Assembly (NCBI RefSeq): GCF_003990915.1
Contig: NZ_BHXQ01000001.1
Span: 113,402 to 177,401, forward strand
DNA: 64,000 nucleotides
Direction: 5' to 3'
Source of the DNA: Chryseotalea sanaruensis
Lineage (GTDB): Bacteria; Bacteroidota; Bacteroidia; Cytophagales; Cyclobacteriaceae
Of the stretch, positions 1 through 25,475 are shown piece by piece. The notes beneath the pieces were generated by a model, which saw nothing but the letters and a program-made list of their open reading frames with translations, was not told the origin of the DNA and did not search any database. Every line of letters starts with the position of its first letter. Within the stretch, counting starts at the first letter, position 1. Both the position numbers and the translations under genes were made by a program.

Positions 1-3000
1 CTACTACAGAGATATCATCCTCAGGGGCAAAAGCAGAGCCCTCAGCCCACGCTAAAGCCACACGTTTTTCTCCGTCTTTCACCAATGAAGTGAATTTAGT
101 TCCGGCAGCATTCGGTAACATGCTTCTAAGCACATAATTAAACTGCGTTTCACCCGATGGAACTGTTCCAATGGAGGTATTAAGACTGGTTAATATTTCC
201 TGCTCAACCACCATTACATGAAGCACCGTAGCTCTTGTACTAAGGTCAATCAGTGGCGTGAATTCAACGATTATACTATCCGCTTCTAATCCAGACTCGT
301 TCAAGGTTACGTTAATGTTTGCATCTGCCAGATCAAGAATGCGCTTATCGAATTCGCGTTGACCCCAATCACTAAACATTAAATTTTGTCCTACAGGTAT
401 TGAACCATCAAGCCTTGCATTAGGCACATCAGCGATACCATAATACAACGCACGAGCACCAGGATCATCCGGATTCATCGCATTAAATGGATCTGCTCCC
501 GGGAAGGCCGTATGATAGTTTACTTTAATAATCTCAACACCTTCTGAAGCAGAGACGAAATCATTGATCGCCTGATTCTCGGCAGCAATACGCGCGTCTG
601 ATGAACCGCTATTGGTGAAGCCTTCCACAAGTACAGTTCTTGTACCGTTACCAATGCGAACATTATCAATGGCAAAACCATCTTTCGTCTTCAGGGTAGC
701 CGTAGAAGCAATGGCAAATCGGAATACGATTTGAGTGTTATTGTTCAGTGGAAGACTCTGGCCATTTACATCTAGAAAATTTAACTTATGCTTGGCAGTT
801 CTCCAACCCGTAGCGGTTTCTGTCCATCCATAATCACCATCAGTTTGATCGCCAGGACGGGCAGCAATACCCACTTTGTTATACCATTCAACACCAGTGC
901 TTTCCTGATCTGCGAAGCTTCCCAAGCGGCTCCATACTTTGGCGGGGTCAGCAATGTTTAAATTGTCTGTAGAGTATTCCAAAACCACACCGTCAATATC
1001 ATCAAGATCAGTGAATAGGTCGAAGGTAATAATGGGTCTGTCTAATCCTGTAAGATCAAAATTAGGGCTATACAGTGCTGACGCTTCGTTGGCATTATAA
1101 GCGCCACTTAAGTTAGTGATCCAAACGTTATCGCCATTTTCACTTCCATTTAGGATGGTTGTTTTAGCGGCTTCACCACGCTCCCAAGAGACATTTGTAC
1201 CAAAAGGTATCCAGTCATTTTCATTGGCATCAGATTCAAAAGTATCTTCAAATGCACTGGATGCATCCGGAGCTGCCTGAGGTACCGTTACAACTGTTTT
1301 GGTAATTTCATCGACACAGCCTCCTGCAGAGGTAACCGTAAGCGTAATGTCGAAGACGCCTGAAGGTGTGGTATAGTCACTAAACACACTGGATGTAGTA
1401 GTGAGCGTATTAGGGAATACACCAGGTATTGACTGCAGATCTTTATTTCCGATATCTGAAAGATTGGTGACATCAATAGACGAGACTCCTTCAAATGAGA
1501 AATCAGCAACAGGGATGCTGCCTACTGTTACAGCTATGTTTGAAGTATTGCTACATCCAAATGTAGAAGTTGTAACCAATGATACATTATACTTCAAAGA
1601 TTGTGTAAAGGTATGTACCGTATCGATGCCAGTAGCTTCATTCGGATTGTTACCTGTGGCATTGACATCTCCAAAAGCCCAATGATATTCACTAATACTA
1701 CCATTGGCAATATTACTATTAGAGGCATTGAATTTTAAAGGAATTCCTTCACAGTAAGCGTCAACCGTTGGTGTGTTTATTGTTTCTTCGCTTTCGTAAG
1801 TAAACTGGCTTACTGGATTTGGCACAATTCGTATTGTCAATTCACCTATTGAAGAACATGGGGAATTATTCTCTTGATAAGTATAACGCACTATCAGGTT
1901 CTTATAACCATTGGTAATTCCAACATTTGTTGTTCCTAAAATAAGCATTGGATTTAGTGTTGAAGTACCGTTGCCATTATCAACGAATGCACTTCCCGGA
2001 TAATTAACAATTGGTTGACCGTCTTCAGAAACGAGTGTGAAAGTACCAACAGATGCTCCTGTTGATGCAGCAGGATAGCCGTTCAAGATAATAGCACCAC
2101 CAGCCTCACAAAATACAGGAATACTTTTACTATTGGCAACAATAGTATTTGTGATATTACTTGATCCGATTTCAATTACAGGGATGGCAGGAACAAAAAC
2201 TTCAACCTCTTGACGAATTGGTATTATAGAACTAGCATCAGCTTGACTCCTGTATTTACCTGTAAACTCAATTTTTCCTAAGGATCCACCATCATAATAG
2301 ATGCTTCCCTTAGGTGATAGTTTTCGGAATTTCTCATATGGATTCTCTGCTATACCCAACGCTTCACTGTTAGCATTTAATATTTTAGTATAGTCCATCT
2401 TATAGTCTCTGTATGGCTGAGATGGGATAGCTGGAATTTGCATTACCGGTATTGTGTTTACAAGACTCCTCCAGTCATTACCATTTATAGTTTGACTCGC
2501 TGGTGCAGTTTCGGGTATATCGGCATATAGCTCTAGCAAATCATAACCGTTTAAAGCGTTACCTAAAATTGTAGCAGAAAGCGGAAGTATGCTTACTGAT
2601 AATCCAGGAAACTGTTCGTTAATAATACACTGCTGAGTTGCCAAGCCTGGTATTGCCTCTACACTATTATAAATAGTATATTGTTCCGCAACGGTAGAAA
2701 CACAACCATTCATATCGGTATGGACCATTGTAATGTTGAACGCAGGATTTGTTTGCGCCAGACTTAACTCATCATTGGTAACGCTAAAGCCTGTAAAAAA
2801 GGAAGGTCCATAATCATTGGCAGGAACTTCCGGAATTAAACGAACAATAGAACGATCTGAGGAATTAAAATTGTTAGGGATTGCAGTTACGACATCTGTG
2901 ATTTCGATTGGCGGTGCTGCAAAATTGTTTGCCTCGGAATAGCTGTTGGTAAAACTTAAAGGGGTGGCCGCACTTGAAACAATGGTACCTAGTACAGCTC

Positions 3001-6000
3001 CTTCCGCCAATGTAGGGATTGCATTACCTGCAAAACGCCTAATGCTTCCATTAACATCTGCGTTATTTGCAATAACGAATAAATTGGAAATTGTAATGGC
3101 ATCCAGATCAACATTAGCGTCAACTAGGAAGGATATATTCAAGAGCGTATTGTTAAGAAAACTAAATTGAAGTTGTGTCGGATCAAAATCTGTCCCTGTC
3201 AAAACAATGTCAGGTTGCACATCTACATCAAATTGGAAACCGGTAGGAAGGATAATATTGAAATTTTGAGCACCAATATTAAATTCACTTACATTACTCT
3301 CAGCGATAATAATTGGATCTGCTAACAAGGCTTCACTATTAGCACATATCTGGTACAAAGGCTTATTTAAATATAGCGATGTAGGTGTAGGAGGTGCAGT
3401 TATTTTAAAAGTTGGATTTCCAACACTACCTAGACCAGCGCCATAGTTTGTATTTTTTGGGCCGAAAGGTGCCAAGGTTGGTACAGGTTGTGGTAAGGCA
3501 TCATTTTCTGCGTACATCCACACATCGTAGGTTGTACCCCCGATTAAATTCGTTGTAAATATTCCATGTTGTAATGCTTCAATCTGCTTAATTTCAATCA
3601 CCCCACTAGCAGCCACCGTTCCTAAATATCCAGATAAAATTGATGGATTTTTTATCTGTGCAGTCGTTGGAACTGGGTCATTCTCATCGACAATTAAGAA
3701 ATAGGCCTTTCCAAACTGATTAAAAGAAGCATTGATAGAACCTCCTGAAGGCGTGAAATAATACTTAGTCTCATCAGTGGTTATCATAGTAGGAGGGTTC
3801 TCACTGGCAATTTTAAAATATAGGGTACCATTATAGGAGATACCACCAAAGAGATTGGTGCCATCATCAGCAATACCAGTACCTGTATTTGTGAGAGGAT
3901 TGAATGTGCCTGGTTCAATGGTAAGATAGTAAACGCCATCTGCTTCAAGCACAGTGCCTGGAGGTATGTTGAAGGTAAGTGGGGTTGGATTAGTTACTGA
4001 TCCTGCTACGGGCTCGTTAAGTGCATATCTACCATTTGCAGCGGTAAGTGTAGCAACTAAACTATTGTCTTCGCGATTATAAAGTTTAGCAATACCATCG
4101 TAAGTCCACACAGGGACATCAAATGTTAGTGTAATCGTACTTTGAGCAGGATCAACATTTAATTGCCCATTCTCCGGATATGAGCTGATCAATATTGGGG
4201 GTCGCTTAGAGGCAAATGAATATTGTTTGCCAGTGACATTTGCTTTGGAACTTCCCGCAGTAGTATTTAGTAAATTATTTGTCAGAGAACCAAAGCCTTC
4301 ATCTAATACCTTAGGTGTAAGTCGTGAGCTATTGCTGTTTGCTGTTGGATCTACATCTACTAATAAGAAATAGGAGAGAGTTGAATTACTATTGTTAAGG
4401 TTTCTAGGTGTAGGGAAAGTAATAGTCACCATATCCTGTGCTGTGATAGACAATAGTGGATCAATAATTGGTGATCTGCCTTCTGTAACAATTCCTCCAT
4501 ATGCGGTTATATTCGTAGAGCCTGCGAACGTTCCTGTTGTAGACTCAAAAACCCTGAAATTTTTTAATATGGTTGTGGAAGAACTTTTATAAGGAAGATC
4601 AAATAGAATAGAGAAACCATTTAATGTTGGCTCGGATCCTGTCTTATGTAAGGCCTTAATATCAACTCCAAAAATAACTACGTTGGTTGACCCGCCTTGA
4701 ATGTTGGGTGAAACAACTACACCATTTGTATTCTCTATAGCGGTAACATGAATAACATCAACAACTGAACTGGCAGTTGACCCTCCTGTAATGCTCGATA
4801 AGCCATTGGATGTTACAGTGTATGTTCCTGAACCTGCAAATAAATATTGCAGACCTGTAAAATTCAGAATTCCATTAGTAAAGCTTCTGTTAACGCTTGT
4901 GACATTTGGCACTACACCATTTTCAATGGTTGCACTGAAATTGAAGTCAAGGTCTACTATACCATTGTTGTCTCGTGCTTCTACTACAGGCGTTACAGAA
5001 AGTGGTTGATCTATCCCTTCAATGGAAGCAGGTTGTGTTGTAAAGTCAAGACGAGTCGCTGTAACCTCAAGTAAATTCCTGTTAGCCGGAGCAGTAAGTG
5101 AACCAGGAGGGTTACCTGCTACGTATCCTACCACAGGCTCATAAAAACGTGAACCACCACCCAGTGTTGCGCTTACGATGGAAAGTCGAACAGGAATGTT
5201 ATCAATAATTACAGCAGGAGTATTGAAGAAAGTAGCCCTTAGTCTGAATAGCTTTCTACCGTCATCTGGGGCTGTTATGCCCAGCAATGGACCAAAGGTT
5301 ATCTGACCATCAGCGCCAACAATAACAAAGTCCGTGGCATCTTTCTCCTGTAATTCATTATCATTTTCATCGTAGATGGCAATTTTTCTTATTGTCTCAT
5401 GATTTTCGAAACTAAAGGTGATGGAATTGAGTATGGTTGCAGCACCATCTATATCACCCGGTATGCCATCACCATCACCATCAGATATTACAAGTTCCAA
5501 TAGATTAAAGCTGTTGTTGTTTTCAATATTGGTAGCCTGATAATCTTTGTATGGAATATTTTCAGGTAATTCATAACCATTTTCAGCAGTAATAAAAGAT
5601 TCAAATGACGCAGCCACGTCAAATTGTGTACTCACAGCAGCGGTTGGTAAAGCGCCTAGTTGATTATTTGTTGTCACAGGAACAGTGAGCGTGAGGTCTT
5701 CTCCATCTTGCTCAAATTGGAAATTAGGCGCTAAGATGGCAAAGTCATATACACCAGCTACGAAGTTTCCAGTTGGCTCATTGTTCATGACAAGTGTCAA
5801 TGAGTTCGTCACTGTACCTACAGCACCTGTGTAATCGCTATCCAGATTGTTATTGGCATCGCGCGCTCCAAGGACTATATATGGATTATCGATGTTCGTG
5901 AACGTACTGATGTTGGTAGCGTTGGGGTTGACAAGGAAATCAATCTTGGTAGCAACAACTTCAAGTTTATTCTCATCGCCATTTGCAGTACTCACAATAC

Positions 6001-9000
6001 CCACTGGACTTGTAGTGGCAAATTGTGAAGAGGTAACGTTACGGGCAGTTACACTAACTACTGAAAAGGTGATCACTTCATTATCACCAACAGTATTTAA
6101 GAAACTTCCTTTAACTGTAAGATCATTTTCATTATCATCATTAGCACTAAACTCAAATCCAGATAGTACAAGTTCACCAGTTATAATATTAATATTGGTG
6201 GCAACGTTCACCTCAACTAACTCAGTGCCGCCATCATATAGGGCGATGTTTCTTAAATTTTCCCAGTTGTTAATGGCTAATGTTATGCCGGTAAGTACTG
6301 TCTCAGTACCATCCGTATCATTGGCTGCCAAACCGCCATCTCTTACGAGGAATCTTTCTAATGAAACACCACTACCACCGGTAATATCAGCAGTTTGATG
6401 ATTGATGTATTGGATATCGGTAGGATAAGTGAAAGATGCGTCTTTGATTATATCAGAGGCGTTAGAGTAATTTACGGTAAAGGATATACTCTGTGCTGTG
6501 GTTAAACCAGCGGAGCTTACAAATAGATTTGTTATTCCTCCGGCTGGTCCGTTGCCAGCACTGGTTACATTAAAGGCAGGATCAAAAGTAATTATGCCGT
6601 TGTTGTTGGTTAATGTCGTATTTGCTAAAGTATAAGTGGCCGGAGTCTGACTTGTTACTGCAGGAGTACCCGCATAATCAGTATCAAGATTGCCATTTGC
6701 ATCCCTTGCCTTAACAACTGGTGATGGGTTTATAGGAGCATCATAGTTTTGAGAAGCGTTAGGTTGTGTGGTAAAATCTAATCTTGTGGCTACTACTTCA
6801 ACAGTATTGTTTCCATTTCCTGAAGAAGTGGTACTGGCTTGCAAAGCACTACTTTGTGGGCTAGCCAATATTGTAATGTCATTCTGATTTACATTAAAAA
6901 CAAAGTCCTTATTGTCAAGATCATCCACAATGGAACCATCGATTGGGTTTCCTGCAGGGCCTTTTAAGACAATTCTTAAACGGTATGTTTTAGAAGCACC
7001 ATCACTAATATATCCAAGATCAGATGCTAACGTATTGTTCATACCGGAGAAAGTAATTTCAGTTCCGGCTACGTTTATAACTCCATTAAGAATATTAACA
7101 CCATCACTTAATCTTACTGATGCTATCGCATTATTCCAATTGGCAAGTATTCCATCATTTCCAACACCTTGCGTAATTCTGATCTGACTGATTCTTGTTG
7201 GTAAACCATCGTTGTCTTCCAATGTTGTTCCATTAGCGCCAGCATCATCTGTAATGGTAAAGTCGAAGTTGTCTACAGCGCTAACTAATGTATTGCTTAA
7301 TGAAGAAATTGTGGCAGGCTCAGGTGCAGCACCTGCGGTAATTTGAGTTAGATTGGTGATTACTGCCGTAACGTTGGTACTGGTTGCCATTGAAACTGTT
7401 GTGGCACCTGTACCAATTACCCTGATCTGCGTTGTGCCTGTAGCTAAGAGTGAATAGTTGCTAAGTGTCAAAATACCACCTGCAGGAAAAGCCAAGTGTG
7501 TTGTTGTTTGCGCCAGCGCGTTTGTATTGTTAACTGTAATACTTTCGTTGTAGCCTAGATCTAGATTATTATTAGCATCAAGTGCGTATACCTTAGGGGC
7601 AGTTGCTATAGGGAAATTGGAGGCCACACCAATTTGTGGCTGAGGTTGAGTAGGTGTACCAGGTGTTCCTTGTGTACGGAATGCCAATTGAGAAGCGACT
7701 ACATTTACTCGGTTATTAAGAGCACCAGATTGAACTACTTGAGCTGCCTGAAGTGTTGTGCTTAGTTGATCGTTGCTAGTGTCGTTGTAAGCAAAACTCG
7801 AATTGTTAACTGCAAATGCGAAGTTCAGGCCATCAATGTTTGCAGGTAGCGTTCCTCCCAGTGAACTTTTAAGCCATATTTTAACCGTATAATTTTTAAA
7901 AGAAGCGTCATTGATAAAGCCAAGGTCTGCTGCTCCTGATGAAGGTATACCAGTGAAAATAATTTGATTATTAGTTATAGATGAGGCAACGATTGAATTG
8001 GTGCCATCACTTAATACTGCACCATCTATGGCTTGTGTCCAGTCAGTTATATCATTTCCAGTTCCCTGAAATACAGTGAGCGCTGAGAATTTAAAAGGAG
8101 CACTATCTGAATTAACAGTTTCATCAGTTATGACAAAAGCCATATTTCCATTGGTTTGTGCTTCAGCTTCTCCCTGAGTATCTACTAATGCACTTATAGT
8201 AGTGTTTATCCCTAATAGGTTAAGGGTTGCTGAGGCTGCTGTAGTTGTGTTAGTAGTGCCTGTCAAGACAGTACCTAAACGGTAGTCCAGTAGAAATTGG
8301 CTGTTGTATAATCCTGAAAAATTTACAGATATAATTCTGAAATCATAATCGATACCAGATTTGAGTGTTAGGGCGAAATAATTTAAAAGATCATACGGCA
8401 AAGTGGTGGTTGTGCTGATCACCTCGCTGAATGTACCATCACTTAGATCAGTGTCGGGGCTATATTCTCCATCAACGGGATCAGTAAATGCAAGACCACT
8501 TTCATTTATTTGAATTAGGTAATAGTTCGCAGGAACAAGTGGAGCTACTGGGTGATCAAGGTCTATTACAAGATTAAAGGGGGTTTGGGTAACTACATTG
8601 AAATTGGTAGCTGCATTGCTTGGCTCAGGAAATACTATTGTGAAATAATCATTAAAGGCATCATTCAATGGGTCAGCCGGGTATGCAATGCTACCCGTAA
8701 ATGCTCCATCACCAATGACAGGTCCCCCCAACGGATTACCTGCAGCATCAATTATGGAATTATTGTCCGTTACATTTAAAGCTAGCTGCGCATTACTAGA
8801 TGCATCTAAAAGTTGTACGTTGCTTAAGGTAACTGTATAAACAGAACCAGAGCCTGAGACCCCAAGAATTCCAAAAGTAAGATCAGCGTCTGTAGTTCTG
8901 TTAAGCGAAAAATCAGTAACGTCAACACCTGTTACATTCTCACTGAATGTAACGATCCATGTTAATGTTTGAGAAGATGTGGCATTGGTAAAATTGTTAC

Positions 9001-15001: not shown

Positions 15002-15060
15002 ATTAACTGGGGGTCGTTAAAGCTGATTAAAGTGTTATTACTAGTGGTTTATTCTAAATT

Positions 15061-16383
15061 CTATAAATCTCCGTTAGCATCGAGCTTCAGGAGCATTACT
15101 TTTCTGAAGTCGATACCAAATTCAGATGAGCCAAGCACCAAATAGCCTCCATCTTTTGTTTGGATAACACAAGCGCCTTCTTCATCCTGTGAGCCGCCAT
15201 AATTTTTTGTCCAGATTTCTTCTCCAATGGTATTTAGTCTTGCGATAAACAAATCAGTTCCACCATTACCAGTAGTATTTACTGAAGCACCATTACCCAA
15301 TAAGATTAATCCACCATCGCTAGTACCCTCTATTGCTTTCCCTTCGTCATTTCCGGTTGCGAAATCTAAATTTTTAGAGAAAATAGGGGCGGTTTCCGTA
15401 GGGCTGAACTTAACCACATACATATCATTATCGGTTCCTGTAGAACTAGTTCCTATAAGCGCATAGCCAGAAAAACCTCCTTTAACCTCACAGGCATCAC
15501 TAGCGGTTTCTGTGGTGGTGTTGGGTTGATCAGGCTTTACCGAAATCGCCTGCTGATCATTTTGGTTATAAGTGAATAAACGCATTTCACTCTCAGTTGA
15601 ACCACCCCAAACAAGCTTCTCCTGGTTATTCACAAAAATTTTTCTTGCGACAACACCAATGCCATCTCCATAAAAGCGTTGCCAGATTCTTGTTAAGTCA
15701 GTAGTGGAAATTTCTGTGACCATCATTTTATTGGTGCCATAATTATTTACAGAAGAGAGTACTATAAAATTACCATTGGCATTAAGGGCAATACCTCTTC
15801 CGGTTATTGATATATCTTCTAATTCTACATTACCGGTTTCAGCAGCCAGATCAGTACCGCTAACAGATGTATGAGGCGTAAACATTCTTTCATCTCCTTC
15901 ACTTAAAACAACGCCATCTTTTATGGGTGCACCATCTTTGTTTACAAGTAGTAGTGCCAGGTTGGCAAGTGAGGTACTGCCTGTACTTGAAATATTCTGA
16001 TTTATTAATTCTTCGCCAACAATAGCGTAGTTGTCACCTTGCTGGATAATCATGAACCCCCTGAGACTATAAACATTTGCACCAGGTTGCTCTAATTCAT
16101 TTTCAGCCGGGAATTTAGGGTAAACTTCTTCCCATTGCAGGTTTCCATAGAAATCTGTTTTAATCAGTTTGATTTTGTAAAAAAAGACTGATTGATTATC
16201 CGTTCCTATTTGAATATTATTCAATAGCAGGTAGCCATCACTGGTTTCTATTACTTGTTGTGGTTGATGACTGTATTGACTTCCGAAATAGCGGATATAA
16301 GTGTTCTCATTTGCCAGATCAGCATTGTCTTCCGATTGGCAAGCGCTAACTATTATTAACAGGATAAGTATAAAGCGATTCAT
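15061..16383 (-). CDS. Secreted propeller-type lipoprotein
   Basis: A 440-residue protein with a lipoprotein signal: a hydrophobic stretch ending LIIVSAC puts the lipidated Cys at residue 15. The mature part carries repeats of the 'TxDGGYLLLG' kind (for example 'TSDGYLLLN', 'TSDGGLILLGNG', 'TKDGGYLVLGSS') spaced as in delta-60 or beta-propeller proteins, so a single propeller covering most of the chain is expected. Enzymatic residues are not evident. Its start is 1 bp from the stop of the upstream outer-membrane protein gene and its stop is 59 bp before the giant gene, so the three are probably co-transcribed and act together at the cell surface (inference). Exact function is unknown. Confidence 0.8.
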   Translation of the reverse strand: MNRFILILLIIVSACQSEDNADLANENTYIRYFGSQYSHQPQQVIETSDGYLLLNNIQIGTDNQSVFFYKIKLIKTDFYGNLQWEEVYPKFPAENELEQPGANVYSLRGFMIIQQGDNYAIVGEELINQNISSTGSTSLANLALLLVNKDGAPIKDGVVLSEGDERMFTPHTSVSGTDLAAETGNVELEDISITGRGIALNANGNFIVLSSVNNYGTNKMMVTEISTTDLTRIWQRFYGDGIGVVARKIFVNNQEKLVWGGSTESEMRLFTYNQNDQQAISVKPDQPNTTTETASDACEVKGGFSGYALIGTSSTGTDNDMYVVKFSPTETAPIFSKNLDFATGNDEGKAIEGTSDGGLILLGNGASVNTTGNGGTDLFIARLNTIGEEIWTKNYGGSQDEEGACVIQTKDGGYLVLGSSEFGIDFRKVMLLKLDANGDL

Positions 16384-16384
16384 T

Positions 16385-17491
16385 TTATTTAATCAATTTC
16401 TTAGGGTTGAAATAAGGGTAGATCAAACCAATAGAGATTGACGCCTGATTGATCTTGAAATCATTATTAACGTAACCATAGCGGGTTAATATTTCTATAT
16501 TATCCCCCTCCATTTTGTAACGATTATCGGTATTTACAATATTGTTTAAGCCATAGTAATAGCGCAAATCAGCCGTCAGGTATACCGTTGCGATCTTAAT
16601 TTTCCCGCCAACCAGTAGTACTCCGGCAAAATTGAGTGATTTATAATTGTCCGTATTATCAAGTTCAGCACCGCTCACATCATCGCCCCGAGGCTCTAAT
16701 TGAAGCTCGCCTAGAAATTTAGAGCTATTGGCCCCCATGTAAGATGTTGCTAGTCCTGCCCCTGCATAAGGTTGCACTAACCCGCGCAATAAGGTTTTCT
16801 TGAACATGTAATTACCAATCAGATTAAATTGGAAAGTGCTTTGCTGTATAATTGCTTCCAGACCGGTAGCATCACTTACATTGTCTGCTGTATTATCATC
16901 GCTAAAAGCTTCTTTATTAGCGTATGTAAATGAATGTCCACTTAGCAGGAATTCCGGAGCAAGTACAATTTTATCTTTCAGTATGCTTTTCTCAAAAGCA
17001 AGACCACCCACAAAGCGTGCATTGCTCTTATAGGTTCCTTTACCCTGACTATTTGCAAAAACAGTATAGTGCTCCTGCACGTGAACACGGGTTGAGAGCA
17101 TACCGCCTCTTACACCAATTGATAAAACTGGCTTGGTGCGGAACTTAGCATAAAGATTTCTGAATTCAGCAGGGTCAACATCGCTTGGTTTAAAAAAATT
17201 GTCAGTCCTTAAGAGATCTAACATAGCCTCATCAGCCTTTTGCGGTTCTTCCAGGTAGATGTAGGTTAGGACAAGTAGTTTATAGGCTTCAATTCTTTCA
17301 TTTTTTGAAAAGTTATTCAAGCAATCATCCAATAAACTTTGCATTTCATGCAAGCGACCCTGCTCATAGGTAGCACGTGCAGTACGTAGTGTTTGTACGC
17401 AACGGGGATCGGTAGTTTGCGCTACACCTATTGAAAAAGATAGAAATAGCAGGAACAGCGGTAAAACCGTTTTCATTGTAAGGGGTATCAT
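16385..17491 (-). CDS. Outer-membrane beta-barrel protein with TPR-like N-terminus
   Basis: A signal peptide (from MIPLTMKT, ending near GVAQ) is followed by a helical TPR-like section. That section contains a Cys pair and phrases such as 'EQGRLHEMQSLLDDCL' and 'IEAYKLLVLTYIYLEE'. After 'FRTKPVLSIGVRGGM' the rest reads as antiparallel membrane strands ending in 'ASISIGLIYPYF', as in the OMP beta-barrel (PorT-like) group. The frame is open to 17566, but that would overlap the NTPase gene by 59 bp. The ATG at 17489-17491 lies 17 bp after that gene's stop and gives a clean signal peptide; ATG 17476 is also possible. Pairing a short TPR with a barrel is common in Bacteroidota envelope proteins. 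The role here is unknown. Confidence 0.8.
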   Translation of the reverse strand: MIPLTMKTVLPLFLLFLSFSIGVAQTTDPRCVQTLRTARATYEQGRLHEMQSLLDDCLNNFSKNERIEAYKLLVLTYIYLEEPQKADEAMLDLLRTDNFFKPSDVDPAEFRNLYAKFRTKPVLSIGVRGGMLSTRVHVQEHYTVFANSQGKGTYKSNARFVGGLAFEKSILKDKIVLAPEFLLSGHSFTYANKEAFSDDNTADNVSDATGLEAIIQQSTFQFNLIGNYMFKKTLLRGLVQPYAGAGLATSYMGANSSKFLGELQLEPRGDDVSGAELDNTDNYKSLNFAGVLLVGGKIKIATVYLTADLRYYYGLNNIVNTDNRYKMEGDNIEILTRYGYVNNDFKINQASISIGLIYPYFNPKKLIK

Positions 17492-17507
17492 TTTTAAATC
17501 TAGTACT

Positions 17508-20500
17508 CTACTTATTGTCAGGAAGGTTGCTACATGTGATTTCGCGCGTAAGCGCTTTGTCAACATTAACTTCCCATTCTTCTTGCGTTAGGTTTCTGGT
17601 TAAATGCGTACATAATAAATTAGACATGGTCTTCATGTTGGTTGGCCAGGCATGAATTGTCTCACTTGATTTTTCAGAGTTGCTGTTCATACCAGCAAGT
17701 AATTGTTCATCATCTAAAGTAAACACTGCAGTTCTTACCCAGTCAGCATGATCATCTAATACAATAGGTTGCTGATTCAGCTGACTCAAATTCCAAAGTC
17801 GCACTGTTTTATCATAGCTGGCCGTAGCCATAAAGGTGCCTGTATGATTAAAAGTAATCTGTTCAATGGCAGAAGTATGCCCGGATAAAACACGCATAGG
17901 TATTGAGTTGTCCAGCGTAAGTATTCTTACTATCCCCTCTGCATCTCCAAACACTAACTTCTTATCATCACGTGTAAAGCCGGCTCCGGTTAACGGGACA
18001 GCTACTGATTTACCACCTCTTGTTTTAGGCGTAGTCTTAAATAGGGTAGTAGTAGTAAAGTTATTGTTGATATCCCAAATAAATAAAGTTCCATTGTTAC
18101 CTGTGCCGGCTAGTTTCTTGCCGTCTTTACTTAATGAAATGCTATTGATCTTTTCAGTGCTTTTGATTACTTCCTTCACCGAACTCAGATCAGAATATTT
18201 GATGCTGCTTCCAGCATTGTCGCGAGCAAAAAATCCTTTACCATCATTGGTAAAATTCAAATTGTCGATGTCAAAAGTAAAGCCTCCTATTTTTTTCGGT
18301 GGAGCCGACATGTTTCGTAGGTCATACAGCTCAACATAATTCTGGGTAGACAAGCCGTTAGCTAAACCACCTGCTATCATGTAATTTCCATCAGGACTTA
18401 CATCCAAGCTATAAACCAGATAGTTGCTACGCTTATCAACAAGTATTTCACTCGACCATTGGTTATTGCGATATGTCCAGGCAAGAATACGTCCATCGCT
18501 ACCTCCGGAGTAAATTTTTCTTGTTTTCGCATCACTGATTAATATCCGACAAGCACCGGCATCGTGACCTAATAGATTTTTAGTAAGTGGATCGTCTTGT
18601 TTTTTTAATGCACGGAACAAGCCGGTATAAATATCGTTGTCGTATTCATACCCGTTGTAGGTTTTGTTAAAAATGAAAGCCTGTTGTGCTAATAAAGATT
18701 GAAGCTCTTTGTCAGGTTGCTCCTTCGATTTTACTGCAATCTGTTTTGCTGTGGCAATGTATTGGCGCTCTTTCGCAAGTATGCTTTGTCTTAGCGCTTC
18801 ATCAGCATTGGTTTGCGCTAGCTTTTCATTATCCTCAGCACGCTGCTTTTCAAAATTTGCTATTTCCTCATTTTTTTCAGCGAGTAGTTTTTGAGCTTCT
18901 GCACGCTGCTTTTGAAGCAAGGCATTTTTCTCACTTTCTACAGCTGCTATTCTTGCTCTTTCAGCTTGTGCCTGCGCAATTTTGGCGCTATCTCTTTGTA
19001 TTTCAGCGTAATGCGCAGCGTCTTCAGCTCTTTTAGCATTATCATCAGCGAGTTGTTTTTGAACTAATGTCGCAGCTTGTGCTTTTTCCGCTTCAGTCAT
19101 CTGAATGAAAGCAAACACAATACCCACAAGTGCTACAATCATACCAGCAGCCAATACTAATGCTACAATCCGTGCGCGTTGTAACTTTCTTTTCTGCTCT
19201 AATTCCTTAATGCGCTGTTCTGTCTCGAATTCTTTTTTAGAATACTCAAGAAAGATCATCGTGCGTTCGAAGGCAGGATTGTAACGTTGTCCCCAAACCA
19301 GTGTTGGTTTGTGTTTAGCTTGCCAGTTAAGCGCTAATTGTAAATCAGGTGGTCTCCACAAACCTGCTTTTCCGACCTGGTACATAGCAGCTGCTTCTGC
19401 AAGACGCGTGTACATTTGTACAGCATCGGCTTCATCATCCACCCAGTTTTTTAAACGCACCCAAATGCGCATCAATGATTCATGCGAAATGTCGACCATT
19501 GATTTAGAGGCAATGGGCAAACCGTAGCCTGGTGTTAATAGTGAACGACCGGGTTCGCGGAATTTTTCAATGATAGCAACTACATCTTCTTCTGAACAAT
19601 CAGCAATAGCTGCAATTTCATTTAAACGGGTAGGGCGTCTGATACCAAAGTTTTCACCACGCTTTTCAGTAATGGCTTTAAAGAGAATTTCGCATACGCG
19701 TTTTTGCTCTTCATCCAATTCATCATAGGCTTCATTGGCGTGCATACTCAAGGCTTCGGACATGGTACCGATAGCCTCGTAATGCTTCAAATCAAGTGCC
19801 TCTGTATCGTAGTCTTTGTACTTGGCCCAGTACGACCATGTACGCATCAACGCGTGCTGCAGAATTGGTAATTGGTCAGGGTTATCCCCCAAATCATTTA
19901 ATAGTTGTTGCGATAGGCGAGGAGCAATGGTTGCACCGCCTACAGCTACCGGCCCTTCAATGGCTCTGCGCTTTTGATCGCGCGTCATCTGAGGAATCAG
20001 GTAGTGACTATCGTTTATTTTTCTGGTGAGCTCAGGAAACTGGGCACACTCACCAATAAAATCCGAACGCATAGTAATCGCCACATAAATGGGCGCGTCC
20101 GGATAGTTTACAGCCTCCATCAATAAATTGATAAAGGCTAATGATTCGTTTACTGAATTAGGATCAGTACCGTCTTTAAAACGGAATAATTCTTCAAACT
20201 GATCGACTAGGATCAAATAATTTACATCAGCTGAACGCCTTGATTGTTCAACAGCTTCAACCAAACCCAATGAAGAGCTACGAAGTAGTGTAGAGAAGAT
20301 GGTTCGCTTTATTCTTTTTTCTTCAGGATCTGCAGAGATGTATTCAGGATTGTTCTTGATCAGGGCCTCAGCCATATTATCAATAGGGCCACCACCTGGA
20401 CGTGTTACAACCACTTCCCAGTTAGGACTGGCATCAGTTAGGAAACCACCATACAATATTGGTAATACACCACAATAGATGAAGGATGACTTACCACTAC

Positions 20501-20663
20501 CACTTGGGCCGATAACACCTACGAATCTGCTCTTGGAGAGTTTAAGAAGCACTTCATCACTTTGGCCTTCACGACCAAAGAACAAGTGACTTTCATCGAT
20601 TTGAAAAGGTCGCAGCCCGGGGAAGGGGTTGGCGGCTACTTTATCTACAACTTCCATACTCAT
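17508..20663 (-). CDS. nSTAND1-type NTPase with transmembrane anchor, coiled coil and WD40 propeller
   Basis: A 1051-residue protein opening 'NPFPGLRPFQIDESHLFFGRE', the usual entry of nSTAND1 NTPases. Walker A is GPSGSGKSS (residues 52-60), Walker B is LILVDQFEELF (150-160), and an 'ITMRSDF' sensor-like block lies near 196. A winged-helix-like segment follows to about residue 420. A single transmembrane helix lies at about 498-520, then an Ala/Glu/Gln/Lys-rich coiled coil (about 520-680). A C-terminal WD40 propeller (about 700-1020) includes 'GHDAGACRILISDAKTRKIYSGGSDGRILAW' broken over two blades and 'ATASYDKTVRLWNL'. STAND proteins are signal-activated oligomerising switches. This one should be anchored in the inner membrane. 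It starts 9 bp after the TIR-like gene, which suggests the two proteins work as a pair. Confidence 0.88.
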   Translation of the reverse strand: MSMEVVDKVAANPFPGLRPFQIDESHLFFGREGQSDEVLLKLSKSRFVGVIGPSGSGKSSFIYCGVLPILYGGFLTDASPNWEVVVTRPGGGPIDNMAEALIKNNPEYISADPEEKRIKRTIFSTLLRSSSLGLVEAVEQSRRSADVNYLILVDQFEELFRFKDGTDPNSVNESLAFINLLMEAVNYPDAPIYVAITMRSDFIGECAQFPELTRKINDSHYLIPQMTRDQKRRAIEGPVAVGGATIAPRLSQQLLNDLGDNPDQLPILQHALMRTWSYWAKYKDYDTEALDLKHYEAIGTMSEALSMHANEAYDELDEEQKRVCEILFKAITEKRGENFGIRRPTRLNEIAAIADCSEEDVVAIIEKFREPGRSLLTPGYGLPIASKSMVDISHESLMRIWVRLKNWVDDEADAVQMYTRLAEAAAMYQVGKAGLWRPPDLQLALNWQAKHKPTLVWGQRYNPAFERTMIFLEYSKKEFETEQRIKELEQKRKLQRARIVALVLAAGMIVALVGIVFAFIQMTEAEKAQAATLVQKQLADDNAKRAEDAAHYAEIQRDSAKIAQAQAERARIAAVESEKNALLQKQRAEAQKLLAEKNEEIANFEKQRAEDNEKLAQTNADEALRQSILAKERQYIATAKQIAVKSKEQPDKELQSLLAQQAFIFNKTYNGYEYDNDIYTGLFRALKKQDDPLTKNLLGHDAGACRILISDAKTRKIYSGGSDGRILAWTYRNNQWSSEILVDKRSNYLVYSLDVSPDGNYMIAGGLANGLSTQNYVELYDLRNMSAPPKKIGGFTFDIDNLNFTNDGKGFFARDNAGSSIKYSDLSSVKEVIKSTEKINSISLSKDGKKLAGTGNNGTLFIWDINNNFTTTTLFKTTPKTRGGKSVAVPLTGAGFTRDDKKLVFGDAEGIVRILTLDNSIPMRVLSGHTSAIEQITFNHTGTFMATASYDKTVRLWNLSQLNQQPIVLDDHADWVRTAVFTLDDEQLLAGMNSNSEKSSETIHAWPTNMKTMSNLLCTHLTRNLTQEEWEVNVDKALTREITCSNLPDNK

Positions 20664-20672
20664 GTTGCTCGA

Positions 20673-22115
20673 TTAAAATTCTTTTAAGAATGATTTAACA
20701 TTTTCAAGTGAATGCTGTGCTTCGCCCTGAAATACTCTTATGTTTTGGCTACGATAACTTTCGGCATTAATAGCTGTGCCATCGCCAGTATAAATCGCTT
20801 TGCCCATAATGGGTTTCTTTCTACCAAAGCCGGGCGCTTTTAATAAGTCAAGCACCTTCATTCTCACCCATTGTTCGTTTACTTTACCTTTAAAGATTAT
20901 AGCTGCATCAAAGCTTCTTAAATTATCAATATGTTTTTTTCTTAGATCAAGCAATTCTCCTTCAAACTCGGGTAATAAAACTTTATAGCCCGATTTTTCT
21001 ATTACTTCCGCCAGTGCCTTTACTTCCTGCTGGTCTACCCGATCATGTACTAAGTAAACAGACTTGCCTAGTTCAGCGCCAGAGCCTTTGCGTTCAAGGG
21101 ATTCTACCAACTCTTCGCGCATAATATTTTTAAAGTCTTCCAACGGTGTTTGTAGAATTTCTGCACCTTCTTGCGCTTCAACATCGCGTTTAATGCTTTC
21201 TATAAACGATTTCTGACGATCACTGGCATTGGCAATTACTGGTGAAATCCAGATAAGACGGGAAAATTCACCATCACTTTGTTTGGCACGCGAACTTCTT
21301 TCTGCTGATAACCTATTTTGAATATCAACGATTGATCTTTCGGAGCCTTCTGGGATTTCACCATAAGCACTACCAATAAGGTGGATCGAAAGACTACATT
21401 CTTCTAAATCTTTCTTAACTACCTTTTCAAGTTCTCCCAAGGTCCCTGGCAAAGTTTGCTGTGGCATTACAATGTAGCCGTGTCGGATTAGTTCTCGCTT
21501 AATAATGTTGCGCTGTACTGAAAGGTCGTGACCAGTTTCGGCCAGATAAATATTTTTACGTTTGTAAATATTTCTGATTTCTGTACCCTTACCCATAGCC
21601 CGTAGTTGCATCAATGAATCAAAGATATCGTAGGCTAAATCCACCATCTTCATCCAATATTGACGTTCTGCTTCAAGGCTAAAGTAGTCAGTGTACTCTT
21701 TGGTATCCCCGGTTTCAGTATCGATCTGATACATTTCATAACCGATTAGCTCTCGTAATCTTGGTGGTTGTTCCTGGTTACTCAGTGGTGCTTTAAAAAC
21801 TTTAAACACTCTGTTGGCTTTTCTTTCAGAATTCTGAATAGCCTTATAAAATGTCTCAACATTGTCCAGGCATCTTCCGGACTGGATGAAATCTTTAGAA
21901 AGCACCGTTGCCAATACCCCCACGTTGGTCATATCCGGGGCAGTCACTGTATCGAATTCTGATTTTAACAGGATATTTGGTTTTTCCCCTAAAACCTGCA
22001 TGAGCATTAGCTCGAGAAAACGCTTAAAGTCAGACACCCAGCCTGAGGTCTTTTTTTTCTGAGGCTCATTATCGTTATCCGCAAAAATTATTAATACATC
22101 GACATCGATTTGCAT
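20673..22115 (-). CDS. Multi-domain TIR / DUF4062-like protein
   Basis: A 480-residue soluble protein with no signal peptide. Three Rossmann-like units are visible. Residues 4-150 read like a TIR fold ('DVDVLIIFADNDNEP', then 'WVSDFKRFLELML', then 'LSKDFIQSGRCLDNVETF'). Residues 188-345 resemble DUF4062 ('KNIYLAETGHDLSVQRNIIK' ... 'CSLSIHLIGSAYGEIPEG'). Residues 352-480 are another TIR-like unit ('KSVYLVHDRVDQQEVKALAE' ... 'SFDAAIIFKG'). In the first unit a Glu sits near the helix that carries the NAD-cleaving Glu in catalytic TIRs, but the spacing is not canonical, so enzymatic activity cannot be claimed. It lies 28 bp after the MFS-HEAT gene and 9 bp before the STAND gene. It could be the effector or the adaptor of that NTPase. 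Confidence 0.72.
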   Translation of the reverse strand: MQIDVDVLIIFADNDNEPQKKKTSGWVSDFKRFLELMLMQVLGEKPNILLKSEFDTVTAPDMTNVGVLATVLSKDFIQSGRCLDNVETFYKAIQNSERKANRVFKVFKAPLSNQEQPPRLRELIGYEMYQIDTETGDTKEYTDYFSLEAERQYWMKMVDLAYDIFDSLMQLRAMGKGTEIRNIYKRKNIYLAETGHDLSVQRNIIKRELIRHGYIVMPQQTLPGTLGELEKVVKKDLEECSLSIHLIGSAYGEIPEGSERSIVDIQNRLSAERSSRAKQSDGEFSRLIWISPVIANASDRQKSFIESIKRDVEAQEGAEILQTPLEDFKNIMREELVESLERKGSGAELGKSVYLVHDRVDQQEVKALAEVIEKSGYKVLLPEFEGELLDLRKKHIDNLRSFDAAIIFKGKVNEQWVRMKVLDLLKAPGFGRKKPIMGKAIYTGDGTAINAESYRSQNIRVFQGEAQHSLENVKSFLKEF

Positions 22116-22143
22116 GGAAGGGGGCAGTTATGGGTTTTAAAAA

Positions 22144-25100
22144 TTATAGGTTCGCTACTTTTGCTGATTGCGTTACATTCTTAATTAATTGTTGTACCAA
22201 CTCATGGTGGTTAGCTATTACAAAATAGAAATCTGTCAAACTTATTCTGAATACAATACTTCGCTCTGAGGCGATAACTGTATTGGCCTCTGGAGCAGGA
22301 GCATCTTGAAATAAGTCACCGTATACATCACCTTTTTTCATAACGGTTACCAATTGATCATTATGTTGAAGGCGTACTTCACCATGTGCTACCATCAACA
22401 GAGGAGTATCTATTGTGCTCGAAGTAAAGGTTATTGTTTCTCCAGCCCTTAATTCAAGTGGAGCAATCTTATCCACCAAATCACTTAACATTACACCATG
22501 GATATGTTGAAATGCTTTTAGTTCTTTAAGGAAGAAGACCATTTCTATTCCGAGGAAGAAACCATCATCCAAACCATCTAGCAGTTGGTTGTTTTCAATA
22601 GAGCCATCAAGGAATTTCTTGTCTTTTAAGGGAAGTCTGTCTACTACAGTTTGATAAGCTTTTTTATCCTTGTTGTAAATTACCCAGGCAGCAGTCTCCT
22701 GCAAGAGCCTATCTCTATTAAAAAGCTGAGCTATTAACCCCCGACTCACCCTGAACTCAGGCAGATAAGCAGCTGAATGTATAGCACACATTTTAGTCCA
22801 GCGATTATTCTGATTGAAATCGCGGTTAAGGATGTAGTTAATAACCTGTATAGGAGAATAGGTTTCTCTAGGGAAATACACCTGTAATTCTTCAAGTTTT
22901 ACTGAAACAGGCTTGTCATCAAAAAGCGGAAATAGTTTTGGTTTAAGGTCATTATCAACAAAAATATCCATCAACTCCAATGCGAAAGTGATGCCATCCG
23001 GATCGCCCGAGTCTATATTTTCTCTAACAAGCTGAATATTTTGTGGATCGTAAAGCAATGATAAGAGCAAGGTAATCTGATCGAAATTTTCAGCGATTTC
23101 TTCCTTCAATGCTTGTCTCAGGTATTGAAAATATTCGTTTTTGGGTAGCTCAGTAACAGCTGCCAGGTTCCACATGGTTTTGCCTATTTCTTCATCAAGC
23201 AAGACCATGACTTCCTGTGCTTCTCTGCCAATAGCTTTGTGGTTAATGTAACGTAGGGTGTATAAGATTTGCTTAACAATGCGTTTATCAGGGTAGTCTG
23301 CTTTTTTCCAGAGTAAATCCAATGCGGCAGGTCCTCCAATTCGCCCCATAATTTGGACTAACCGTAACATCACCAGATCACTCTGGCTACTTTTATGAAA
23401 AGCGGCATCTAATGAAGGGAGAACTGCTTCACCGGCCTCACGTAAAGCGGCAGCCGCATGATGACCATAAGCAGGGGAGTTAAGCAATTCAATCAATACT
23501 GGCCAAGTCTCAGAGCGTTTTACCTTACGCGCAGTTAACAGGGCTTCATAACGAACGCGTGGGTCCACATCGCGCATTAACTCAAGCAACACAAAAATTG
23601 TTCTTTGCGAAATTAATTTCCGTAAGAGCTTGGCAGCTAATATTCTATCCGGTGATTTATTGGATTTCCCCAGCTTCATTAATTTATCCGGAGAGATAGA
23701 AAGCAAATCGCTATCCTCAGATTCACCAATAGCGAGTAGTGCCAATGATTTTGTTTCTGAATTAGGTGCGAAGTCCTGATCTATACCAAGTTCCTGGATT
23801 TTGCCTTTAGCAAACTCACGAACTTTTTTATTCTCATTGTCAGCAAGTCTGATTAAAGAGGATTCGAACACTGCAGGCTCGAGTTTTTCCATCAGTTTAA
23901 GTCCGTAAATAACTTTCTCTTCACCGGAGCTATTCACCTCTAGTTCAAGAACATTATTAACAGTAAAAGCTTTTTCGTTTTTCTTTTCGGTTGTGGCTCG
24001 CTCTTTACCTTTACTAAGGGCACCCTGCAAGGTTTGTCTGTACGATGTATTTAATCGGTTTGCTACTAGGTACCAAATCACAAACATGGGGATAGCGAAA
24101 ATGGTAAAGTAGATCAGTTGCGTTAATTGCACTTTTAAGATCAATAAAATGAGGGCTCCGGCTAATAAGTTACCAAGGGCTAACACGGTTCCCTCCAGCT
24201 TGGTTTGCACATCCAGGCGGTGTTCACTATCTACTGGAAGCATGTAGAGCTTCATTACCGGTTCATCAAGTGCTTCGCGTGTGGCTTGCATTACCAGCTT
24301 ACTCATGGCAATCATGATGAAGAAAATAACAAATGATTGACCAGCAGCTGCAGTATAACCAAAAGAAAGCCCCAACAATAAGGCGCCTACAGTGAAAAGA
24401 CCAGTAAGGATAGGGTTGATGATGGAGGCCACCCGCATGCCGTACATTGAAACTATTTTATCGGCAGCAAATGTTTGGAAGAGGAAGCTGAATATAACCA
24501 CAACTGCCTCGAAGTAACTTAAGAAGGTTGGTACATAGTCTTTATCAAAGTAAATCTGTGTTGTCTGTAGAAAAGAGAAGTCTACAAATCGCAGAGCTAC
24601 CATGGTTATGATGACGAAAATTGACATGTAGAAGACATAGCGAATCTTGAAAATTTGCATGAAATCCAGCTTTTGGTGCTTTCTCTTCTCTTCAGCCAAA
24701 GAGGCACCATGAGATAAAAAACGAATAGATAAAATCGCAAAAAGTAAAAAGTATCCAGTTACTGAGACCAGGCCAATGGAGTAAAGCGCGGCTGTATCTA
24801 CATAATTTAAAATTTGGGGGATCGAGAAAAAAGCAATCAAGGAAGCTATCAAGAAACCGGCATCCACGCTTCCGAGTAATCGTTTGGATTCCCGGAGGTT
24901 AAACAAACGGCCAAAGGAACCCCAAAAAACCAATAGGGTAATAAAAGTAAAGGGTAAAATAAGGGTAAAACCGATGTAATGGATGGTATCAGGGTTGCTA
25001 AACAGGTTTTCGCCAAACTCAATGAGGGCTGTTAGCCCCATTATGGTAAGCAAACTTGCACAACCCAAAAGGATAAAGGGTATCCTGTTTTGGAAATAAT

Positions 25101-25317
25101 TGTAGATGAAGGTTGCCATAAGGGCAAAAAGTCCAGACACTACAAAAGCTGTCGCCAGGTCTTCCTGATCTGGGTAATGCTCTAGAAATAATGACTGCGC
25201 TGCTACAGATAGGCATGCAATAAACATCCCCATAAAAAAACCCATAACGAGCAACAGGGTCATTCTCCCAGATTCTTCAGGCTCAATGCCTAAGGTCTTA
25301 TATAGTTTAGATAGCAT
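22144..25317 (-). CDS. MFS/Npt-type transporter fused to HEAT repeats and a cNMP-binding-like domain
   Basis: A 1057-residue protein. Residues 1-420 contain about twelve hydrophobic helices and resemble MFS or Npt1/Npt2-type ATP/ADP translocases, including the amphipathic 'ATREALDEPVMKLYMLPV' block. Residues 440-900 are helical HEAT-type repeats ('VFVLLELMRDVDPRVRYEAL' type). Residues 940-1050 resemble a cyclic nucleotide-binding beta-roll ('LELRAGETITF' ... 'MVAHGEVRLQ' ... 'KKGDVYGDLF'). The Arg of the usual phosphate-binding 'RxA' is absent (EANTV instead), so cNMP binding is doubtful. Transporter-HEAT-cNMP fusions occur in Bacteroidota. It is the first gene of the minus-strand run and is divergent from the OmpA gene. 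Its substrate is unknown. Confidence 0.82.
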   Translation of the reverse strand: MLSKLYKTLGIEPEESGRMTLLLVMGFFMGMFIACLSVAAQSLFLEHYPDQEDLATAFVVSGLFALMATFIYNYFQNRIPFILLGCASLLTIMGLTALIEFGENLFSNPDTIHYIGFTLILPFTFITLLVFWGSFGRLFNLRESKRLLGSVDAGFLIASLIAFFSIPQILNYVDTAALYSIGLVSVTGYFLLFAILSIRFLSHGASLAEEKRKHQKLDFMQIFKIRYVFYMSIFVIITMVALRFVDFSFLQTTQIYFDKDYVPTFLSYFEAVVVIFSFLFQTFAADKIVSMYGMRVASIINPILTGLFTVGALLLGLSFGYTAAAGQSFVIFFIMIAMSKLVMQATREALDEPVMKLYMLPVDSEHRLDVQTKLEGTVLALGNLLAGALILLILKVQLTQLIYFTIFAIPMFVIWYLVANRLNTSYRQTLQGALSKGKERATTEKKNEKAFTVNNVLELEVNSSGEEKVIYGLKLMEKLEPAVFESSLIRLADNENKKVREFAKGKIQELGIDQDFAPNSETKSLALLAIGESEDSDLLSISPDKLMKLGKSNKSPDRILAAKLLRKLISQRTIFVLLELMRDVDPRVRYEALLTARKVKRSETWPVLIELLNSPAYGHHAAAALREAGEAVLPSLDAAFHKSSQSDLVMLRLVQIMGRIGGPAALDLLWKKADYPDKRIVKQILYTLRYINHKAIGREAQEVMVLLDEEIGKTMWNLAAVTELPKNEYFQYLRQALKEEIAENFDQITLLLSLLYDPQNIQLVRENIDSGDPDGITFALELMDIFVDNDLKPKLFPLFDDKPVSVKLEELQVYFPRETYSPIQVINYILNRDFNQNNRWTKMCAIHSAAYLPEFRVSRGLIAQLFNRDRLLQETAAWVIYNKDKKAYQTVVDRLPLKDKKFLDGSIENNQLLDGLDDGFFLGIEMVFFLKELKAFQHIHGVMLSDLVDKIAPLELRAGETITFTSSTIDTPLLMVAHGEVRLQHNDQLVTVMKKGDVYGDLFQDAPAPEANTVIASERSIVFRISLTDFYFVIANHHELVQQLIKNVTQSAKVANL

Positions 25318-25373
25318 AGTTTGCGACCAACATCCCTAAAATTCGGTATAATCAATTAAAAATCCTATAGATT

Positions 25374-25381
25374 TACTTTTG
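25374..25381 (+). promoter_or_regulatory. Possible -7 box (TAnnTTTG type)
   Basis: TACTTTTG matches the Bacteroidota -7 consensus and lies 94 bp before the OmpA start, in the 158 bp divergent gap. I see no TTTG at the expected -33 position. Confidence 0.3.
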
Positions 25382-25475
25382 CAAATTCTTGCAACTTTAC
25401 GGCTATTATTACATTCGGTTGCATTTTTTAATGATTCATAACAGATTGGTACTTTATTTGCCAACAAGCGATTCT

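Follow-up and report, generated by a model that had tools for sequence, protein, structure and literature searches.

The window analysed here is a stretch of 64,000 nucleotides of Chryseotalea sanaruensis (contig NZ_BHXQ01000001.1, positions 113,402 to 177,401 of the forward strand). It holds a run of six minus-strand genes which probably encodes a receptor spanning the cell envelope. The tight succession of six genes reported in the initial annotation was recovered: all six open reading frames (ORFs) are confirmed in the window, the sixth one starting at 15001. The genes and their main parts are the following:

22144..25317, minus strand: NTT-like transporter with HEAT repeats and a cyclic-nucleotide-binding-like domain, 1057 aa (profile and fold matches)
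20673..22115, minus strand: triple TIR-like protein (TIR1 - DUF4062 - TIR3), 480 aa (DUF4062, 28.4 bits)
17508..20663, minus strand: nSTAND1 NTPase - transmembrane (TM) segment - rod - WD40 propeller, 1051 aa (nSTAND1, 325.4 bits; WD40)
19095..19175, minus strand: predicted TM segment of the STAND protein, about residues 497-523 (hydropathy and charge)
18720..19094, minus strand: alanine-heptad rod of the STAND protein, about residues 524-648, a single helix in the model (Ala at one heptad position in 16 of 17 turns)
17604..18581, minus strand: WD40 propeller of the STAND protein, predicted to be periplasmic (Pfam and AlphaFold model)
16385..17566, minus strand: TPR - outer-membrane beta-barrel protein, likely start 17491 (OMP_b-brl_2, 33.7 bits)
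17117..17413, minus strand: TPR domain of the barrel protein, residues 52-150, predicted periplasmic docking domain (homology to the TPR of TonB receptors)
15061..16383, minus strand: predicted lipoprotein with delta-60-like propeller repeats (lipobox-like VSAC; weak delta_60_rpt)
1..15001, minus strand: giant cargo of the type IX secretion system (T9SS), 5116 aa, with fn3 and PKD domains, the last 350 bp being outside the window (profile matches)

In run order, the gaps are 28 bp, 9 bp, an overlap, 1 bp and 59 bp. Four of these values agree with the initial annotation; the third gap, given there as 17 bp, is an overlap of the STAND and barrel genes, turning into a 16-bp gap when the inner ATG at 17491 is taken as the barrel start. 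The scans gave no support for an internal promoter or terminator, named beforehand as evidence against a single unit. No terminator-like site was found within the gaps, and in 8000-27500 the number of promoter-like matches does not exceed that of shuffles (42 vs. a shuffle mean of 49.2). The motif TTG-N17-23-TAnnTTTG is absent from the minus strand of 14901-25500.

The core of the run is the pair formed by the nSTAND1 NTPase and the TPR-barrel gene. Among 59 relatives, the barrel gene is localized at most 300 bp from 44 of the 46 high-scoring STAND genes (STAND rows of at least 700 bits, split pieces being joined for G010, G011 and G036; 46 of 60 TPR-barrel rows). The two other STAND genes lie at a contig end (G026) or in a genome where the TIR-like, STAND and barrel genes are on three contigs (G054). 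A profile search of 241 genomes of the order, with an E cut of 1e-60 for STAND, found TPR in 79 and STAND in 75, i.e., both in 72, TPR only in 7, STAND only in 3 and neither in 159 (Fisher p 4.6e-49, uncorrected for kinship). In these genomes 74 of 95 TPR rows are within 2.5 kb of a STAND gene, and 17 of the 21 unlinked rows belong to genomes with a STAND elsewhere (95 of 104 TPR rows, the 9 weakest being omitted; 101 STAND entries after merging of split rows). Two of the omitted weak rows (G595, G619) adjoin TIR-type proteins. In G506 a STAND gene (L213) lies away from both barrel-lipoprotein sets (L214, L215), which looks like a single switch shared among several surface parts.

The same genome contains a second operon (L155) of the order NTT-STAND-barrel-lipoprotein-giant, without a TIR-like gene. 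Ten of the twelve TIR-less operons form one clade in the trees of STAND (support 100), barrel (97) and lipoprotein (93), obtained by a quick method which leaves many forks open; the other two, L156 and L160, fall outside it. The TIR-STAND pair is not the core, since the TIR-like gene can be missing where STAND and surface genes are present, and the small barrel can be missing where a TIR-STAND pair is present (for example L133, L145, L172). Such a separation had been put forward in the initial annotation as a refutation of one six-gene system, and it is found in part.

The order of the whole run is nevertheless conserved, as the initial annotation had proposed to check. The loci examined were 80 loci with the TIR-like protein in named records, of 92 matches. 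Among these listed loci, 59 of 80 hold all six genes in the same order and on the same strand and 4 more hold all six with a split frame. The remaining 17 comprise 15 loci cut by contig ends, one with room where the giant was not recognised (L113) and one lone TIR-like gene (L101). The order is kept in dozens of Chryseolinea-related bacteria, with median gaps of 16, 5, 3, −4 and 34 bp (102-117 gene pairs; starts taken as the first start codon after a stop). The giant of relatives was defined as the largest ORF starting at most 1500 bp after the lipoprotein gene. In a second set of 59 loci, which includes deliberately chosen paralogues and pairs, the exact six genes were found in 22, including L137, whose TIR-like protein is about 28% identical. 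Elsewhere the TIR-like family is rare, with any match, mostly partial, in 18 of 395 genomes across the phylum. Lone TIR-like genes with no adjoining STAND were seen in L101, L117, L126 and L138; the first three are still near queA/menC, which flank the full run elsewhere.

It could be argued that the neighbourhood is fortuitous or loose, i.e., that an adhesin operon and a signalling pair share a transcript and do not work together. The TIR-like and NTT genes can indeed be absent, and some TIR-like genes stand alone. This explanation is strongly disfavoured, and its probability is very small, in view of the kept order, the congruent clades, the co-occurrence even of unlinked genes and the re-use of the same domains in new fusions (see below). 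The form given to it in the initial annotation, a defence pair merged by chance into an adhesin operon, is not supported, given the 59 ordered loci among the 80 and the STAND-barrel adjacency in 44 of 46.

The STAND protein largely exceeds the nSTAND1 cut-off of Pfam (27.1 bits), and WD40 was also found. Membership of nSTAND1 is confirmed by a Walker A motif in 97 and a Walker B Asp in all of the 98 type I STANDs. The AlphaFold model comprises the NTPase, an unbroken helix at 465-648 and the propeller (mean pLDDT 84.3, pTM 0.48), and the nearest full-length solved fold is Apaf-1. The hydrophobic segment has a hydropathy >1.6 in 98/98 type I and 12/12 type II STANDs. Lys and Arg are commoner before than after it in the same 98 and 12 proteins and in 9 of 11 «noBarrel» STANDs, a class which, here and in the rod length and heptad analyses, includes contig-cut loci. 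From this excess of Lys and Arg, the propeller is predicted to be outside the inner membrane. About 125 residues separate the end of the segment from the end of the helix, i.e., about 19 nm at 1.5 Å each in the model, and such a rod would be predicted to place the propeller near the outer membrane.

The length of the rod varies little. In the 98 type I STANDs, L472 and the propeller landmark are 206 ± 3.6 residues apart, namely 205/206 in 70, 212/213 in 20 and other values in 8. Type II STANDs add the lengths 184 and 191, and the «noBarrel» class has a median of 254 (standard deviation 32.6, n=11). From these length classes, most changes correspond to one or more heptads; a strict heptad quantisation was rejected, the lengths 207, 208, 214 and 215 (6 of 98) being off whole-heptad steps. 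The number of heptad turns with Ala has a median of 16 in type I (range 3-17) and of 13 in type II (range 11-16). Of the 11 «noBarrel» STANDs, eight have just 1-5 such turns and thus no Ala rod, L146 has 9, and L148 and L150 have 15 each. The Ala-rod STAND of L148 adjoins a TonB receptor gene, and the locus of L150 ends at contig ends. In L153, L154 and L174 two tandem STANDs, each about 1350 aa long and without an Ala rod, come after a distant TIR-like protein (with an N-terminal extension of its ORF in L154).

The mean identity to the window proteins was calculated for the same 58 relatives. In the STAND protein it is 86% for the NTPase, 49% for the propeller and 36% for the rod. The barrel and the lipoprotein reach 25% and 23%, but the TPR domain 60%. 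The values are 70, 64 and 60% for DUF4062, TIR1 and TIR3, and 66, 50 and 46% for the HEAT, NTT membrane and cyclic-nucleotide-binding domain (cNBD) parts. The TPR is thus a conserved island beside a fast-evolving barrel, which fits a docking domain. Its two Cys are invariant in 12 chosen sequences. The barrel passes the OMP_b-brl_2 cut-off (27 bits); no PorP/SprF match was obtained for the barrel protein in Pfam, where OMP_b-brl_2 alone matched.

The partners of this TPR can be replaced. In L178, L181, L182 and L184 the STAND gene is followed by a TonB-dependent receptor with a homologous N-terminal TPR, and a TPR-TonB receptor is next to STAND in L185, L186 and L191, as judged by length and TPR match only. 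Among the 13 TPR genes of the order entered with frames of 870-900 aa, 11 adjoin a STAND gene. An NTT-like gene belongs to the same cluster as the TPR-TonB and STAND genes in L181, L184, L186, L200 and L201, and the stretches of L178, L182, L185 and L191 show none. In L181 (G046) a GNAT acetyltransferase gene is located between the receptor and the NTT-like gene. The other half can also change: the NTPase is replaced by three TIR domains on the membrane-rod-propeller half of six proteins (L202, L204-L208). L202 served to build the TIR profile and thus matches it by construction; the sole one of the six run in Pfam, it scores 254 bits with TIR_2. An S-x-x-C-x-x-E motif is present at all three TIRs in 4 of these proteins and at two TIRs in the other 2. 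The TPR-barrel gene adjoins L202, L204 and L205, is two ORFs off in L206 and is not near L207 and L208. With these two kinds of swap, the detector and the output look exchangeable around a stem made of the TPR and the propeller-rod. In a scan of 20 loci for these genes, matches were marked in 18 (none in L195 and L196). The STAND-free TPR proteins of other families of the phylum (L187-L190, L193, L197, L198) have about 200-440 aa, one having 742 aa and a T9SS tag, and in L187 a T9SS-type PKD protein adjoins the TPR gene.

The label of triple TIR/DUF4062-like protein given in the initial annotation to the second gene stands in part. DUF4062 is over its Pfam cut-off (24.7 bits); the third part matches TIR_2 below threshold (24.3 bits, cut-off 28), and the first part matches weakly the profiles of Toll-like receptor and plant TIR domains (E 0.001). 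Searched with TIR_2, the same genome shows four TIRs elsewhere and none in the window. For TIR1 of the operon members, the column of the catalytic Trp of the SxWCxxE motif has Trp in 0/96 and that of the Glu has Glu in 5/96, so that the catalytic Glu of a TIR NADase is generally not found there. The TIR-STAND pairs without small barrel keep Glu in 11/12 and Trp in 8/12, the two groups being split by hand-made lists. The Glu column of DUF4062, assigned by eye, is Gln in 90/96 members and in 11/12 of the other pairs, hence this Gln does not separate them. TIR3 has Lys at the matching place in 95/96. The TIR motif being lost in operon members, killing by TIR is an unlikely mode of action. From its sequence, the protein is predicted to be catalytically dead and would be an accessory pseudo-TIR scaffold, which may descend from a TIR-STAND pair that was active. 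Among the pairs, L147 and L148 lie beside a TonB-receptor gene or fragment, L145 beside a TPR-S/patatin/TIR protein and L172 beside a TPR-S/hydrolase protein.

These features bear on the idea of a contact-triggered self-harm, where a sensor of non-self or of phage adsorption would lead the STAND to open the NTT-like protein or another effector, the cell being arrested. Relatives of STAND and TIR proteins take part in the immunity of bacteria (PMC13174449 and PMC10907252), the NTPase is conserved whereas the surface parts change quickly, the TIR-fused relatives keep the catalytic Glu motif, and some distant TIR-STAND pairs adjoin predicted lipase or TIR effectors (L145, L172). On the other hand, the TIR motif is lost in the window protein and PADLOC-DB gave no convincing match: the best one, judged like the others without curated cut-offs, is between the cNBD region of the first gene and PycTIR-type models (E 2.4e-5), the others having E 5.7e-4 or weaker. 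Moreover, the order is kept and the genes are co-inherited over many genera, unlike the DUF4062 defence genes, which are patchy according to the available part of PMC13174449. Self-harm is thus quite improbable.

The first gene had been described as an MFS-HEAT-cNMP-like fusion. The MFS label was not retained, the nearest family being the NTT nucleotide translocases by profile as well as by fold. Residues 113-428 or so match the profiles of the Arabidopsis and Chlamydia NTT1 ATP/ADP translocases (E 9.4e-19 and 8.6e-18), the first 112 residues or so being outside the match, and the top five Foldseek matches of the membrane part are NTT translocases. Homology to NTT transporters is thus found, and ATP/ADP exchange may be the activity. 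In Pfam, HEAT_2 is over the cut-off and cNMP_binding just under it. The phosphate-binding Arg of the cNBD is mostly missing (any Arg in the stretch in 9/86), and a gating by cAMP is weakened by this absence. NTT-HEAT-cNBD fusions are known and called uncharacterised in the available part of PMC5381601. The NTT gene, a likely candidate for the output partner, recurs in the majority of the TIR-less operons and in part of the TonB-receptor ones.

At the other end of the run, the lipoprotein has a lipobox-like VSAC close to its N-terminus and nothing firm in Pfam; its match to delta_60_rpt is weak (21.4 bits, cut-off 76.5). The giant multi-domain adhesin of the initial annotation is a real giant; it is longer than described, since the gene runs 350 bp past the window start, and it has a T9SS type A ending (TIGR04183, 50.3 bits, cut-off 23). 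No tandem DNA repeats were found in its gene. The T9SS signal ends the giant protein in 9 of 10 tested loci, i.e., those with a giant ORF ending inside the stretch, and the same genome has the T9SS translocon gene sprA (SprA, 2461 bits); the giant is thus a T9SS cargo by both its signal and its genome. Outside the run, a divergent gene at 25389..27797 on the plus strand encodes a PorE/CHU_0125-like TPR-PD40-OmpA protein, which is below the cut-offs of both NF052230 (266 bits, cut-off 600) and NF053607 (255 bits, cut-off 620). Such a gene is beside the run in many, not all, of the listed loci (80 of 92).

In L156 (G014) the lipoprotein gene is followed by that of a contractile-injection tape-measure-like protein (PF19268, 304 bits), and a T9SS-tagged, Omp28-like protein precedes the NTT gene. 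A general link with contractile injection was rejected: such proteins occur in 18 of 59 relatives and just that of G014 adjoins the STAND operon. In G017 the nearest one is about 24 kb from the STAND operon, and the genome of the window has none.

The giant cargo, the presence of T9SS genes and the frequent PorE/CHU_0125-like neighbour may also be read in the reverse direction: the rod-propeller of the STAND would drive or gate the export, assembly or anchoring of the giant at the barrel. The rod is weakly similar to TolA (15.7 bits, cut-off 213), which would agree with such a machine. This inside-out display of the giant is the chief rival and is considered unlikely. The same STAND-TPR coupling occurs with TonB-dependent receptors and with TIRs in place of the NTPase, and no giant was recognised among the ORFs seen in L178, L182 and L185. 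Furthermore, STANDs are known as switches and not as motors.

It is rather probable that the run encodes a trans-envelope receptor, in which the TPR of the outer barrel acts on the propeller of the STAND and the NTPase is switched in the cytoplasm. The reading preferred in the initial annotation, trans-envelope sensing through an inner-membrane STAND, is thereby supported and made more specific. Read from the sequence, the elements of the receptor are the gene order, the layout NTPase - hydrophobic segment - rod - propeller, the TPR-barrel layout and the T9SS signal of the giant; the outside-in direction, the ligand and the output are what we infer. The giant protein and the lipoprotein would form the surface-contacting part. 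Contact would alter the barrel and its TPR, the TPR likely docking on the WD40 propeller in the periplasm; the propeller would relay the change along the rod to the NTPase, and the NTPase domains would assemble as in Apaf-1. The output would go to the NTT-HEAT-cNBD protein, which is the weakest step, and the triple-TIR protein, predicted to be dead, would serve as a dispensable scaffold.

Several observations weigh against this receptor. STAND and TPR genes are unlinked in some genomes (21 of 95 TPR rows are not near STAND), and TPR is present without a nearby STAND in other families (L187-L190, L193, L194, L197, L198). The NTT gene is absent from the stretch read in the TIR-less operons L164 and L166, and from that read in the TonB-type loci L178, L182 and L185, both of which weaken NTT as output. 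Type I (range 3-17) includes at least one STAND whose Ala periodicity does not exceed that of shuffles, and the 6 rod lengths cited above misfit whole heptads. Finally, the membrane topology of the STAND is a prediction from hydropathy and charge, and the placement of its domains in the model is uncertain, pTM being just 0.48.

A wider proposal, to which a probability somewhat below even is given, is that Bacteroidota hold a class of modular trans-envelope receptors of innate type, with a swappable detector, a shared TPR/propeller-rod-membrane stem and a swappable output. On the same tentative footing, the detector may consist of a small barrel plus a giant T9SS protein, or of a TonB-dependent receptor, and the output of an Apaf-1-like NTPase or of three TIRs. 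The individual domains are known; what may be new is the modular class taken together. In the open-access literature (titles and abstract openings), no description was found of the operon, or of a common stem linking an outer-membrane receptor with an output of NLR-like or TIR type. If true, the class would be a bacterial counterpart of the NOD-like receptors (NLR) and Toll-like receptors which reads the outside of a cell with two membranes. Discussion of the STAND and TIR proteins of bacteria mostly concerns the sensing of phage within the cell; NLR-type and Toll-type logic would then also read contact or nutrients outside, and a testable route would exist for outer-membrane events of Bacteroidota to reach the cytoplasm. 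The natural swaps (NTPase for TIRs, small barrel for TonB receptor) point to the interfaces around the stem.

The comparison with known systems leads to the following likenesses and differences. In the PorP/SprF type, a T9SS cargo is encoded beside an outer-membrane barrel, as is the giant here; the present barrel is OMP_b-brl_2 with a TPR and the signal of the giant is of type A, not type B. In FecA-FecR, the receptor of the outer membrane carries an additional periplasmic domain at its N-terminus and passes its signal to a protein of the inner membrane. The layout from receptor to inner membrane is similar, and some relatives here use a TonB-dependent receptor, whereas here a TPR stands at the N-terminus and the partner in the inner membrane is an nSTAND1 NTPase; the five smaller proteins of the run and the initial 5000 aa of the giant gave no Pfam match to FecR, STN or sigma-factor families. 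Toll-like receptors have cytoplasmic TIRs, one membrane segment and an outer sensor part. The likeness is limited to L202 and L204-L208, with cytoplasmic TIRs, a single membrane segment and an outer sensor; their sensor is a propeller on a rod, and the window protein has an NTPase instead of TIRs. DUF4062 is reported as a TIR-like NADase in the available part of PMC13174449, and the window protein shares this domain with the Swarozyc/DUF4062 defence NADases described there, but its TIR1 motif is lost, its Glu column is Gln (by eye) and its operon context is fixed. The NTT-HEAT-cNBD fusions have the same domain order as the first gene, with no STAND or surface link mentioned in what is available of PMC5381601. 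Finally, the window STAND resembles Apaf-1 and the NLR by its P-loop STAND NTPase and WD40 propeller, Apaf-1 being its nearest full-length fold, and differs from them by a TM segment and a long rod which separate the NTPase from the predicted periplasmic propeller.

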